NCBI RefSeq assembly: GCF_001904635.1
Contig: NZ_MRCB01000017.1
Location: 38,372 to 102,371 of the forward strand
Origin: Hydrococcus rivularis NIES-593
GTDB taxonomy: Bacteria > Cyanobacteriota > Cyanobacteriia > Cyanobacteriales > Microcystaceae
Direction: 5' to 3'
Length of the DNA: 64,000 nucleotides
Shown: positions 46,938-50,613 of the stretch, in pieces
How positions within the stretch are numbered: position 1 is the first letter of the stretch
Layout: each line of letters opens with the position of its first letter
Made by a program: the position numbers and the translations under genes
The notes under the pieces: generated by a model
What the model saw: only the letters and a program-made list of their open reading frames with translations
What the model was told of the DNA's origin: nothing
Databases searched by the model: none

Positions 46938-48878
46938 CTAGTTTTCAGATTCTGTCGAACTCATGTTGTTTATCCTTCGCTTTTTGGAAACACCCCTCTT
47001 GGTTTTTGACTGAGAAGATTTGGGAGGATAAGCGAGAAGAAGTTGTTGAAGACAGGCGATTCCTTCAGAAGTCCAATAGTATCGCTTTCTGGCATCGATA
47101 TAATAATGGCTTCCTTCGATAAATTGAGAGGAGTATTTCGCTTTGGTCTGAATAATCCACTCAGGAGTCACCTTCATGCGTCGGCTAACTTCTTTAGTTG
47201 GCAATGAAGATGGTGGGATAGGATCGGCTTTCTGCTCTGAATGCAAGCGGTGTAGTTGGCGAATGCCTGCCTTCGTCCAGCGAATTGCGCCTTCATCGTC
47301 TTTAAAATAATGAGTTCCTTGACAAAATCGGTCTGAGAACCGATAGCGTTGACGATGACACCAGGTTGCGGAACAACCGAGTTGAGAGGCGATTTCGTGA
47401 GTTGTCCAAGTTTTCGGTTCGAGCTGAGTTTTCAGTCTTTCGATCAGATCCTCAAGAGCATCAGTTAGCTTTAACTGGAACGCCTGAAACTGCTCAATCC
47501 CTCTCCGATATGCAAGGGTAGAAGTTTGCTGTAAATCTCCCCTAGTTTTCTCAACCCAACTTAGGAAGTTATCGGCTTTTTTCTCGATCGCAGTTTTGCT
47601 CTCAGTAGGCGGAGAATTTACTAAGATCTGAGTCTGAGGCGAGCTAGCTTTATAAGGACGAGGATCCCATCTTAGCGCCTTGTTTGATGAGGGAGTTGGC
47701 GAGCGAAGTTCGGGAGCTAATATTTCTTCGGTCTTCTCCTCAGACTTTTGCTCTGTATCAAGGGCAGAAATTAACCTTTCCTTACCAGTGTGATGAGAGG
47801 TATTCCGAGATAACCAATCTTTTCCTTTCTGCCAAAGAAGCAAGGGATTAATCGGGGAGGGCGAATTAAGATTTAGTTTCTCAGATAAGTCTTCTCTTCG
47901 ATGCAAAACTATCGATTCGTCGTTCGATAAAACTCGTGCGAGAGAAGGAATTTTTCTAAACTCTTTTACCTGACAAATTGTTTTTAATTTCTTGGCTAAA
48001 GTAGGAAGCGGAGCAGAAAGATGGGACAGGGATTTAAAGATTTCTGCTTGCTGAGGATTTTGGAAATCCGAACGAGAAAATAGCAGCCCTTCTCGCTCGT
48101 CTAGTCGATACATTTCCCATAGTTTCTTATCTTCTGCCAAAGCCAAAATAGAAAGATAGATAACTAGCTGAGAGAAAAAATCAATTTCTAGACATCTTTT
48201 TTCTAGCGATTTTCTCAGAGGATGCTGATAATCAGAAAGCCCTTTAATATTGTCATCAGAAGTATCTCCCGAAAAGTAAAGGCTATCATAATCGATTAAT
48301 TTAAGCGTCAAGCCATCAAAGCGATTAACTATTAGAATATTTCCGTGCTGCAAATCTCCATGAGCGATACCACTCTCTAAAAAGTCTTGAGATAGCTTTA
48401 ACCAGCGATCGGCTAAAGATTTTAAAAGGTGCTTTTTACCCAGATTTGCTTTAAGAAATTTTTTGAGATTCTCGCCTTCTACCCATTCCATTTTAAGAAT
48501 AGGATAGACATTGCCAAGAACTCTAATTCCCTCTTCTAAAAGAGAAAAATCGACAAAATAAGAGTGACAAGCGTTATTTTTTAGACGGCTCAGCGCTTTT
48601 TTGTAATGATTTATCGCATCAAAATTACTGCGATAGAAGCATCTAATTGCCCAGACTTTTCTAGGAGAAAAAGTTTCATATTTAAAGGCTATGGCAAAAC
48701 TCCCAGAAGCCGACCAAATCTCTCTAGTTCCGTCGGGTTTAATTCTTTCTACTGCTTTTCCTGCTATTAAACTCGAATCCAGGTCTCGCTCGATTAGCGT
48801 TCTCGGATCTTTTTTGCGAAAGGCAAACTGAGGATTGCGAATCGAACTAAAGTAATCCGAACGACTTGGATATTTCAT
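46938..48878 (-). CDS. Protein kinase with twin C-terminal helix-turn-helix modules (triad member 3)
   Basis: The kinase fold spans about residues 30-300. The catalytic loop HGDLQHGN has Asp175 and Asn180 and the DFG-equivalent is DYD (Asp196). The usual VAIK lysine position reads Arg79 in WAIRCF. A disordered, Pro/Ser-rich linker leads to two tandem ~54-residue repeats (492-545 and 560-613) that align without gaps: EIASQLGCSATWCHR with EVSRRMKVTPEWIIQ, and IRWTKAGIRQL with YYWTSEGIACL. They look like winged HTH domains. The last ~30 residues are basic. I chose the ATG at 48878 for its GAGGGG Shine-Dalgarno sequence; ATG codons at 48905 and 48911 are alternatives. It is the third gene of the vWA-PP2C-kinase triad. 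Confidence 0.8.
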   Translation of the reverse strand: MKYPSRSDYFSSIRNPQFAFRKKDPRTLIERDLDSSLIAGKAVERIKPDGTREIWSASGSFAIAFKYETFSPRKVWAIRCFYRSNFDAINHYKKALSRLKNNACHSYFVDFSLLEEGIRVLGNVYPILKMEWVEGENLKKFLKANLGKKHLLKSLADRWLKLSQDFLESGIAHGDLQHGNILIVNRFDGLTLKLIDYDSLYFSGDTSDDNIKGLSDYQHPLRKSLEKRCLEIDFFSQLVIYLSILALAEDKKLWEMYRLDEREGLLFSRSDFQNPQQAEIFKSLSHLSAPLPTLAKKLKTICQVKEFRKIPSLARVLSNDESIVLHRREDLSEKLNLNSPSPINPLLLWQKGKDWLSRNTSHHTGKERLISALDTEQKSEEKTEEILAPELRSPTPSSNKALRWDPRPYKASSPQTQILVNSPPTESKTAIEKKADNFLSWVEKTRGDLQQTSTLAYRRGIEQFQAFQLKLTDALEDLIERLKTQLEPKTWTTHEIASQLGCSATWCHRQRYRFSDRFCQGTHYFKDDEGAIRWTKAGIRQLHRLHSEQKADPIPPSSLPTKEVSRRMKVTPEWIIQTKAKYSSQFIEGSHYYIDARKRYYWTSEGIACLQQLLLAYPPKSSQSKTKRGVSKKRRINNMSSTESEN

Positions 48879-48933
48879 CCCTTTTAACCCCTCACGCGAT
48901 CGCATTAACATCAAGATCGTTATTCAATCTTAA

Positions 48934-49755
48934 TTAATCAGATTCCGCAGATGGCTCCAGGGTTGCAATGTCTTGCCAAATATCTATCTCTTGGCGAACC
49001 TCTTCAAGAATCTTAATTAATGCCATCGTTGTATCGTCGTTTTTAATCAGATTTTTTTGTCTGAGCTGAGCGATCGCCCTGATAAAATCATTTTGTTCTT
49101 TTAGCTCAAAACATTTTTTCCATGCTTCGCCTCGCTCTTCATAATCTGTCAGAAGCCACTGGGAAAATGCATCCGTCGCCAGCAAAAAAATATCTCCATT
49201 CTCATAGCTGCCTTCTTCAAATTGAGGAGGAAATGAAGAGTATTCGGGAAGGCTTTCAAAACATTGAGTCGTTCTCTTAAACGATTGAGAACTCTTGAGG
49301 GGAAAGGCGAGGAGATTATCCCCATTTCTATCTAGCTTAAATAAACAACTATCTCCCACAGCTACGGCTTGCCATTTTCCCCCGCCTGAAGCCTTCGATT
49401 TTTGCAGCCTTAACCCAATGAAAGTAGCAGAACCCCGATTTTTAATTTGCGATCCCCCTTGCCACCATGCCCGATTGGGAGACTTGAGTTTCGCCAAATA
49501 GTATTGTCGCCATTGCTCTTGGGCTGGTTTTAACCATTCCTGATAAGACTGCTGAATCTGTTCGATAGGATCGTCCTGACTTTGACAGAAAGATTTAACC
49601 AAAATTTCTGCCCACTGACTCGGATATAAAGAAGACCCAGCTCCATCTGAGAGGGCAATTAAACTCCCATCCGGGCTGGTTTCAAATCGATCTTGATTGG
49701 TTTTCTCAGCTTCCCCAATTTTCGGCAGAGAAAACGCTAAAATTTCATGGCTCAT
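48934..49755 (-). CDS. PP2C-like Ser/Thr protein phosphatase (triad member 2)
   Basis: The 273-residue protein has the metal-binding motifs of PP2C phosphatases: NQDRFE near residue 20, LSDGAGSSLYP, GSATFIGL, AVGDSCLFKL, LATDAFSQWL and the late NDDTTMAL. It should remove phosphate from Ser/Thr residues set by the adjacent kinase. It lacks membrane segments. Its start is 6 bp after the vWA gene stop, so the two are tightly co-translated, and the kinase gene follows 55 bp downstream. This arrangement fits the TerY-P type triad. Confidence 0.85.
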   Translation of the reverse strand: MSHEILAFSLPKIGEAEKTNQDRFETSPDGSLIALSDGAGSSLYPSQWAEILVKSFCQSQDDPIEQIQQSYQEWLKPAQEQWRQYYLAKLKSPNRAWWQGGSQIKNRGSATFIGLRLQKSKASGGGKWQAVAVGDSCLFKLDRNGDNLLAFPLKSSQSFKRTTQCFESLPEYSSFPPQFEEGSYENGDIFLLATDAFSQWLLTDYEERGEAWKKCFELKEQNDFIRAIAQLRQKNLIKNDDTTMALIKILEEVRQEIDIWQDIATLEPSAESD

Positions 49756-49761
49756 GAAATC

Positions 49762-50613
49762 TCATCCGCGAAACTCCGCTTTCGTCCCGATTTCTAACAA
49801 TTGAATCAGGGTTTCTAGTTTAGCTTTATAGACGAAGCCTCTGGCATAGGGCGAAGGGTTCCATCCGGCAGCGGCAGCTCGTTCTAGCATCAGTGGAGGC
49901 AATTCGCTGGAAATCTCAAACAAAAAGCGGGCGTAGCTATCTCCCTTGGGTAACTGTTCGGGAGAGGCGGGGAGGATGACTTCCGCTTCTGCCCCGTCAG
50001 AAATATGGGCGTTGAGTAACAAGGTTTTTCCATCTTCTGTCTCTAGCTGAGCTAGGGCTTCGGCAGCCGCTTTCGCCTTGGGGAGAGAGTTAGCTTCTCC
50101 ATCGGTAATGTTAATTACTACAGGAGGAAAGCTTGACGGATGACCGTTAATCCACTCGCGGACTAATGTGCCAGCCATGGCAAACGCTTCCGCCATCGGA
50201 GTTTCTCCAACTGCTGCTGGTTCGATCCAGATGGGAAATTGGTCGTCGATTTCTACTAATCCCCCAGCCCCATCCGAAACTTTCCGTTTGATAGTTTCTA
50301 TTCGCAGACAGTGTTCGGTTAATTCTTGTATAGTTACCACTGGCTTAGTAGCTAGCGCTCCCGAAAACGCATTGACGACGGGTTCTTCCATCTGTCCGTA
50401 ACCCAAAACGGAGATGTCGCAGCTATTTTTGATTTCTTCTCCGTCAGTACAAGCTAAGACGGTCTCTCGGAGGACGCGATTAACTGCTGTGGCACATTCT
50501 TTAGCTTTGGTTCCCGCCCCCGGTCCGAATGGGTAACACATGGAAAAAGAGCGATCGATGAGGATAACTAGGTATCCTGGCGTTGCTCGACTGATTTCTT
50601 GGATATAAGGCAT
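49762..50613 (-). CDS. vWA-domain protein, TerY-like (triad member 1)
   Basis: The 283-residue protein is a von Willebrand factor A domain with an intact metal-ion-dependent adhesion site: DRSFSM (D-x-S-x-S), the Thr in AVGETPMAEA and the Asp in VINITDGEAN. vWA domains of the TerY group sit in a conserved triad with PP2C and kinase genes, and often near tellurite- or stress-response genes; none of those ter genes is in this window. It is the first gene of the triad, 6 bp ahead of the phosphatase. It is cytoplasmic, with no signal peptide. Confidence 0.85.
   Translation of the reverse strand: MPYIQEISRATPGYLVILIDRSFSMCYPFGPGAGTKAKECATAVNRVLRETVLACTDGEEIKNSCDISVLGYGQMEEPVVNAFSGALATKPVVTIQELTEHCLRIETIKRKVSDGAGGLVEIDDQFPIWIEPAAVGETPMAEAFAMAGTLVREWINGHPSSFPPVVINITDGEANSLPKAKAAAEALAQLETEDGKTLLLNAHISDGAEAEVILPASPEQLPKGDSYARFLFEISSELPPLMLERAAAAGWNPSPYARGFVYKAKLETLIQLLEIGTKAEFRG

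Follow-up and report, generated by a model that had tools for sequence, protein, structure and literature searches.

What is the kinase of a TerY-P triad brought to when it acts? Triads of a TerY-like vWA protein, a PP2C-type phosphatase and a protein kinase are widespread and some of them are antiphage, but to our knowledge it is not known what their kinase is brought to. The question is raised by one such triad in a 64,000-nucleotide stretch of Hydrococcus rivularis NIES-593 (contig NZ_MRCB01000017.1; here called the window, in whose numbering coordinates are given unless a locus is named). Three closely packed genes on the minus strand (46938-50613) form a compact operon, and the kinase that they encode ends in two tandem modules predicted to fold as winged helix-turn-helix (wHTH) units. 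On balance we think it rather probable, going by the predicted structure, that this tail tethers the kinase-phosphatase switch to DNA.

The kinase gene is listed as an open reading frame (ORF) of 658 aa (46938-48914, minus strand) with a TTG start at 48914, and the residue numbers of the kinase given below follow this numbering. Since homologues start with MKYPSR or MQYPSR, the start is most likely the ATG at 48878, which gives a protein of 646 aa (46938..48878, minus strand); the TTG start would add 12 residues. The tandem repeat at its C-terminus is real, and chance can be excluded as its source. Module 1 (47244..47408, minus strand; residues 503-557, signature WCHxQRY) and module 2 (47040..47204, minus strand; residues 571-625) align without gaps at a BLOSUM62 score of 85, compared with a mean of 21.1 (standard deviation 4.1) for shuffled sequences, and none of 20,000 shuffles scored as high. 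The same test on seven of the 42 homologues that carry this tail gave 0 of 5,000 shuffles in each case, and hhalign of the two repeat profiles returned a probability of 98.9 over 52 columns.

AlphaFold2 models the tail with a mean pLDDT of 88.7 and gives each repeat a helix-helix-strand-strand-helix arrangement; a model of module 2 alone reached a pLDDT of 92.5. The nearest solved folds are mostly what we take, from the structure title or the family, to be MerR-superfamily domains, several of them DNA-bound; the RacA-DNA complex ranks first for both models, at 1.5 and 1.0 Angstrom. The elements that mark a MerR-superfamily wHTH, namely the HTH, the beta wing and the following helix, are all seen, in the predicted models only. 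Among 22 aligned tails (that of the window and 21 of the 42 homologues), Pfam MerR (PF00376) matched one, at E 0.069, and the KilAC/ANT profile weakly matched six, with a best E of 2.9e-4; neither matched the window's own tail. Separately, a phage family whose function is not known, PHROG 23341, matches the module-2 region (window 46941-47447) at E 9.2e-7. The preliminary description of the locus had proposed a TerY-P-type triad on the minus strand whose kinase closes with two gapless repeats of ~54 residues bearing HTH- and wing-like patterns, and on all these points it is borne out: the triad by PADLOC matches, gene adjacency and conserved MIDAS and PP2C residues (below), the repeats by the scores above, and their character by a predicted HTH plus wing closest to MerR-superfamily DNA-binding domains. 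It had also said what would speak against it, a predicted fold other than HTH or a tail that proves a variable linker among homologues; the predicted fold is indeed HTH, and homologues conserve the tail. The profile matches that it suggested looking for came out less well, failing for MerR and holding for antirepressors only weakly and in relatives. As a whole, that interpretation is partly supported.

The tail is under selection. For the window compared with L124, from the same genus, the ratio of nonsynonymous to synonymous substitution rates (dN/dS) is 0.14 for the kinase domain, 0.78 for the linker that follows it and 0.17 for the tail, and a second close pair, L121 and L123, gives 0.07, 0.60 and 0.08; therefore, in close pairs the tail is kept by purifying selection almost as strictly as the kinase domain, and the linker is not. 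In more distant pairs, where synonymous sites are near saturation, the values are 0.21 for the tail and 0.66 for the linker (window and L122), and 0.31 and 0.40 (window and L125). The alignment of 22 tails has 18 invariant columns. In module 1 the second helix (W, C, R, Y) and the hairpin (Y, D, W, T) hold the invariant residues, whereas those of module 2 lie in the hairpin region (H, Y, Y, W, T), which leaves its second helix without any; because of this difference, the two modules may not be doing the same job. The tandem region is basic in all 42 HTH-tailed kinases, with a net charge of +1 to +14 (median +7) and a median pI of 9.6. Beyond it, a C-terminal extension (46941..47039, minus strand; net +6 in the window) is positive in 27 of the 28 homologues in which it has at least 8 aa, while the 14 shorter ones are mostly neutral or -1; it is not strongly constrained, with a dN/dS of 0.71 between the window and L124. 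The hypervariable linker (47409..47936, minus strand; residues 327-502) is only 21.8-29.5% identical between the window and L121, L122 and L125. Within it lies a short W-D-P-R motif (47658..47669, minus strand; residues 416-419), and the pattern W[DNESK]P[RK] occurs in 40 of the 42 HTH-tailed kinases, against a mean of 1.1 and a maximum of 4 in 200 shufflings of the same tails. As a guess, this motif is a docking or phosphorylation site.

The catalytic Asp and Asn of the kinase, the MIDAS residues of the vWA protein and the acidic residues of the phosphatase are intact, and the window holds the full triad, a TerY-like vWA protein with its metal ion-dependent adhesion site (MIDAS), a PP2C and a kinase, adjacent and on one strand. 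The first gene (49762..50613, minus strand; 283 aa) matches PADLOC TerY at E 5.6e-66 over residues 1-279, and the residues of the MIDAS motif, DxSxS...T...D as given in the available part of PMC11090510, are invariant in 12 of 12 aligned proteins (D20, S22, S24, T138, D171). The second (48934..49755, minus strand; 273 aa) matches PADLOC PP2C at E 5.9e-26 over residues 8-249 and Pfam PP2C_2 at E 3.6e-9, above the cut-off; its D22, D37-G38, D195 and N239-D240-D241 are invariant in 11 of 11. In the kinase domain (47937..48878, minus strand; residues 13-326) the HGDLQHGN and IDYDS motifs are kept, with D187 (the HGD Asp), N192 and D208 (the DYD Asp) invariant in all 38 rows. The PADLOC model STK_OB matches the kinase domain only (E 6.9e-54; residues 69-332, profile positions 41-297 of 562). 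The putative beta-3 Lys position (residue 91; 48642-48644) is Arg in the window's kinase; R is found there in 29 and K in 13 of the 42 HTH-tailed kinases; across several phyla, Arg occupies this position in 80 of 108 kinase domains from loci L012-L090 and Lys in the remainder, and because Arg so predominates across the family we regard it, from the alignments, as a family habit. The host genome has one match to the kinase at E <= 0.001. G+C content is lower in the kinase (41.2%) and PP2C (42.9%) genes than in TerY and five neighbouring genes (47.0-52.7%), the window as a whole being at 45.0%.

Among the best 120 of 971 kinase homologues, 42 carry the HTH tail; 41 have both modules, and P0044 has module 1 alone. 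Across 388 genomes of the host's order the kinase model matched in 28, and seven of these have an HTH-tailed kinase (G000, G595, G477, G487, G550, G554 and G515); two (G396, G410) carry the tandem modules in a separate protein, and the remaining 19 have a kinase match without the tail, its absence being judged from the matched query range (locus regions were fetched for all of the 28 but G461, G504, G078, G502, G564, G584 and G618). Four family groups have the tail: f1, f3, f11 and, without the kinase, f53. Sampling the phylum evenly (386 genomes, at most 10 candidates scored per genome) turned up both modules only in the window's own genome, and single-module matches in five others. A tree of 109 kinase domains, built by FastTree only and with the program's warning of long branches, places all 42 HTH-tailed kinases in one starred clade of 60 rows together with 11 short or cut and seven other rows, adjoining a group in which DUF1036-tailed kinases are frequent. 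On this tree the HTH label changes eight times, at least four of the changes being forced by starred branches, compared with 33.7 for shuffled labels. The simplest reading of this distribution, though not a proven one, is that the tail was gained once and later lost or truncated.

Several loci add to this picture. At L126 (8477-9991, plus strand), a close relative, the kinase breaks off within the linker, past WNPR, and no tail can be detected; at L127 (9005-11283, plus strand), in G515, the gene of the HTH-tailed kinase is split over two open frames alongside an uninterrupted TerY and PP2C. The same tandem wHTH pair is found in proteins of 373 and 343 aa at L128 (8283-9404, plus strand) and L129 (5595-6626, plus strand), which have similar N- and C-terminal parts and no kinase domain. 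Seven such stand-alone proteins were found, the three named ones from Prochloraceae, and these (L128, L129 and relatives, P0121-P0127) are the only proteins other than kinases in which we know the tandem pair. In the window's own family, L005 (994-2001, plus strand) and L006 (898-1992, plus strand) encode a single module-2-like wHTH whose flanks resemble those of L128 and L129. The four candidates from the profile search (P0128, P0129, P0130 and P0131) were rejected as independent small tandem-HTH proteins, for each resembles a fragment of an HTH-tailed kinase: P0128 and P0129 start within linker-like sequence that includes WDPR, P0130 starts upstream of the modules and P0131 inside module 2.

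The order of the three genes is kept far more widely than the tail. The triad is intact at L121-L125, as in the window, and in a cross-phylum sample of at least 79 loci, 69 of the 79 among the matches listed, which span many phyla, have TerY, PP2C and kinase in this order along one strand. The kinases of these triads end in a double zinc ribbon (L065), in TPR (L036, L058, L060), in a ricin-type lectin (L082) or, in many cases, in hydrophobic segments. WD40 tails occur in three of 49 kinases, L063 among them, in a Pfam tally of the first 25 families that is dominated by WD40 models and after which ten tails were scanned singly; for L084 and L088 no Pfam family was found for the tail, yet CxxC pairs were counted there. 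A DUF1036 tail is present at L014 and, by precomputed Pfam domains, in 18 of the best 120 of 971 homologues. Since the tails differ so widely among triads, we read the tail as an exchangeable address and not as part of the catalytic core. The partners vary too: other cyanobacterial triads (L130-L137, L140) have a PP2C ORF of 461-545 aa, about twice the 256-273 aa found beside HTH-tailed kinases, with L138 and L139 intermediate at 358 and 323 aa, and many Bacteroidota-type triads (L021-L025, L037, L038, L048, L050, L055, L061, L072, L089) have two or three kinase genes in succession, one of them short (~333-360 aa) and the others longer.

Judged by its genes, the window's system is TerY-P-like; judged by the predicted tail, it belongs to neither the OB nor the zinc-ribbon subtype. 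With the OB-tailed form (STK_OB; Gao et al. 2020, as cited in PMC11090510) it shares all three genes, and its proteins match PADLOC TerY, PP2C and the kinase part of STK_OB, but residues 503-625 of its kinase are predicted as two wHTH units and not as an OB fold. Its architecture is also that of the triad with a zinc-ribbon kinase that the available part of PMC11090510 describes in CoCoNuT and ter systems; the window's kinase, however, has no CxxC after the kinase domain, no McrBC model was matched among 33 neighbours of related loci and no TerD is found in the window's genome. In the same partial source, the OB-tailed form is an antiphage system with the OB tail at the same position of the kinase, and the OB and zinc-ribbon tails are suggested to contact nucleic acid; by analogy, a third nucleic-acid-type tail at this position fits and would sharpen that suggestion. 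The accessible text of PMC7159879 describes an actinobacterial theme in which a kinase (zinc ribbon or transmembrane), a PP2C and a vWA protein stand beside GAP1-N2 GTPases, with the GTPase as the core; the enzymes are the same, whereas the window is cyanobacterial and has a wHTH tail instead. With RacA and the MerR superfamily the likeness is one of predicted fold, the differences being two tandem copies at the C-terminus of a kinase and hardly any match to Pfam MerR. The stand-alone proteins (L128, L129 and P0121-P0127, 343-373 aa) share the tandem module, but lack a kinase domain and have N- and C-terminal parts of their own, and no triad gene was detected in two of their regions. We did not find a wHTH tail on a TerY-P kinase described in the literature searched, some of it available as excerpts only; a prior mention in Anantharaman et al. 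2012 is possible.

The surroundings of the operon give few further hints. Judged from Pfam families of neighbours and from gene order at the same-genus locus L124, the left-hand flanking gene (45740, plus strand) encodes a DctP-type binding protein and the right-hand one (50771, plus strand) a CbiG/CobJ-like protein. The preliminary description had noted that no ter gene is adjacent; this stands for TerD, which is absent from the whole genome, other ter families not having been searched. It had also proposed to look for neighbouring defence genes: the 33 neighbour ORFs of four related loci (L121, L122, L124 and L125, with L123 and L127 omitted as of the same genus as L121, and L124 standing in for the window) look largely housekeeping-like by Pfam (first 25 of 53 families) and offer no positive indication of a defence island. 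Twenty-one PADLOC families, with helicase-, HEAT- and TIR-named models but no McrBC model among them, each match a single member of these 33, in a tally that counts single models without protein assignment and does not test complete systems. Seven regions of 320 bases upstream of the operon share no motif beyond same-genus sharing (those of L121 and L122 are offset by some bases, with start codons slightly upstream of the aligned TerY start). An imperfect inverted repeat lies ~50 bases upstream of TerY in the window and was not found at L124; L125 has two distinct ones, and none is common. As for mobile elements, a search of 50,697 phage records with the tail gave no match at E <= 0.01, a viral contig scan gave 44 pattern stretches of which none was confirmed, and two plasmid records (Acaryochloris, Calothrix) carry a relative, in the kinase part only. 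Insertion into an empty site was not demonstrable, the two flanking genes being on different contigs in G632 and G621.

We favour a DNA tether because of the predicted MerR/RacA-type fold, the invariant residues on the second helix of module 1 and in the hairpins of both modules, the basic tail and the purifying selection on it; because the tail is confined to one clade, the triad order is kept while tails vary and the catalytic Asp and Asn, the MIDAS and the PP2C acidic residues are intact; and because nucleic-acid contact has been suggested for the OB and zinc-ribbon tails (PMC11090510, in part). Double-stranded DNA would be the ligand of the two wHTH units, whose specificity would probably be low or distributed; we prefer this to operator binding, since the upstream regions yielded no common operator. 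The long, fast-changing linker would serve as a flexible arm through which the kinase domain reaches proteins on or near the bound DNA. The vWA protein, its MIDAS intact, may be a sensor or adaptor for a metal or peptide that switches the kinase on or off, perhaps via the WDPR motif of the linker, and kinase and PP2C would be opposing writers, the PP2C resetting the switch. Under stress or during phage infection, the switch could act by phosphorylating proteins bound to DNA, or the kinase could lose its own hold on DNA. The tail would then be the address label of the switch, pointing to DNA here and to other partners where it is TPR, WD40, zinc-ribbon, OB or hydrophobic.

A wHTH pair need not touch DNA, and it could instead be a protein-docking tail, as in the MerR-like CbpM, that recruits a partner or substrate; we hold this to be improbable though worth keeping in mind, as the tail is basic in 42 of 42 kinases, module 1 retains W, C, R and Y on its second helix and many of the near folds are DNA-bound regulators. 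Fainter still is the case for a tail that binds RNA or single strands, which would make the kinase an infection sensor triggered by phage nucleic acid. The nearest folds bind double-stranded DNA and the surveyed neighbours show no positive sign of a defence island, even if antiphage TerY-P has an OB tail in the same position (PMC11090510, in part) and in Pseudomonas a TerY-P gives protection from Autographiviridae in which most cells survive (available text of PMC10889362). TerY-P is likewise described as acting against T7-like phages (PMC7699616, in part), and for the window's triad a role in phage defence is suggested by analogy with such relatives only.

MerR-type regulators are usually operator-specific, so that the kinase might double as a transcription factor at its own promoter, with the tail as an operator-specific reader, and the compact operon and its upstream inverted repeat would suit such a role; with that repeat not found at the same-genus L124 and no common motif in the seven upstream regions beyond same-genus sharing, we rate this as quite unlikely. 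That an ordinary kinase carries the repeats as idle or decaying baggage is barely credible: at least one close relative (L126) lacks the tail and the kinase gene at L127 is in two pieces, but the dN/dS of 0.17 and 0.08 for the tail in two close pairs largely refutes this idea, and the spread over four family groups and the 18 invariant columns in 22 rows speak the same way. We return, then, to the DNA tether, while noting that we know of no defence test of a wHTH-tailed TerY-P form.

The vWA/PP2C/kinase triad is known, and what is new, as far as the partly accessible literature was searched, is the tandem wHTH tail on its kinase. A more general picture, which we put forward tentatively and would not yet bet on, is that of a widespread vWA/PP2C/kinase switch with exchangeable address tails; here, two RacA-like winged helices would fix the kinase to the chromosome or to invading DNA, from where it would signal without a separate transcription factor. 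Triads with tails from lectin through WD40 to wHTH constitute a natural domain-swap series, and a lineage with a predicted DNA-binding pair on the kinase makes the idea that the tail is the address directly testable. If true, this would be a bacterial Ser/Thr kinase that resides on DNA.

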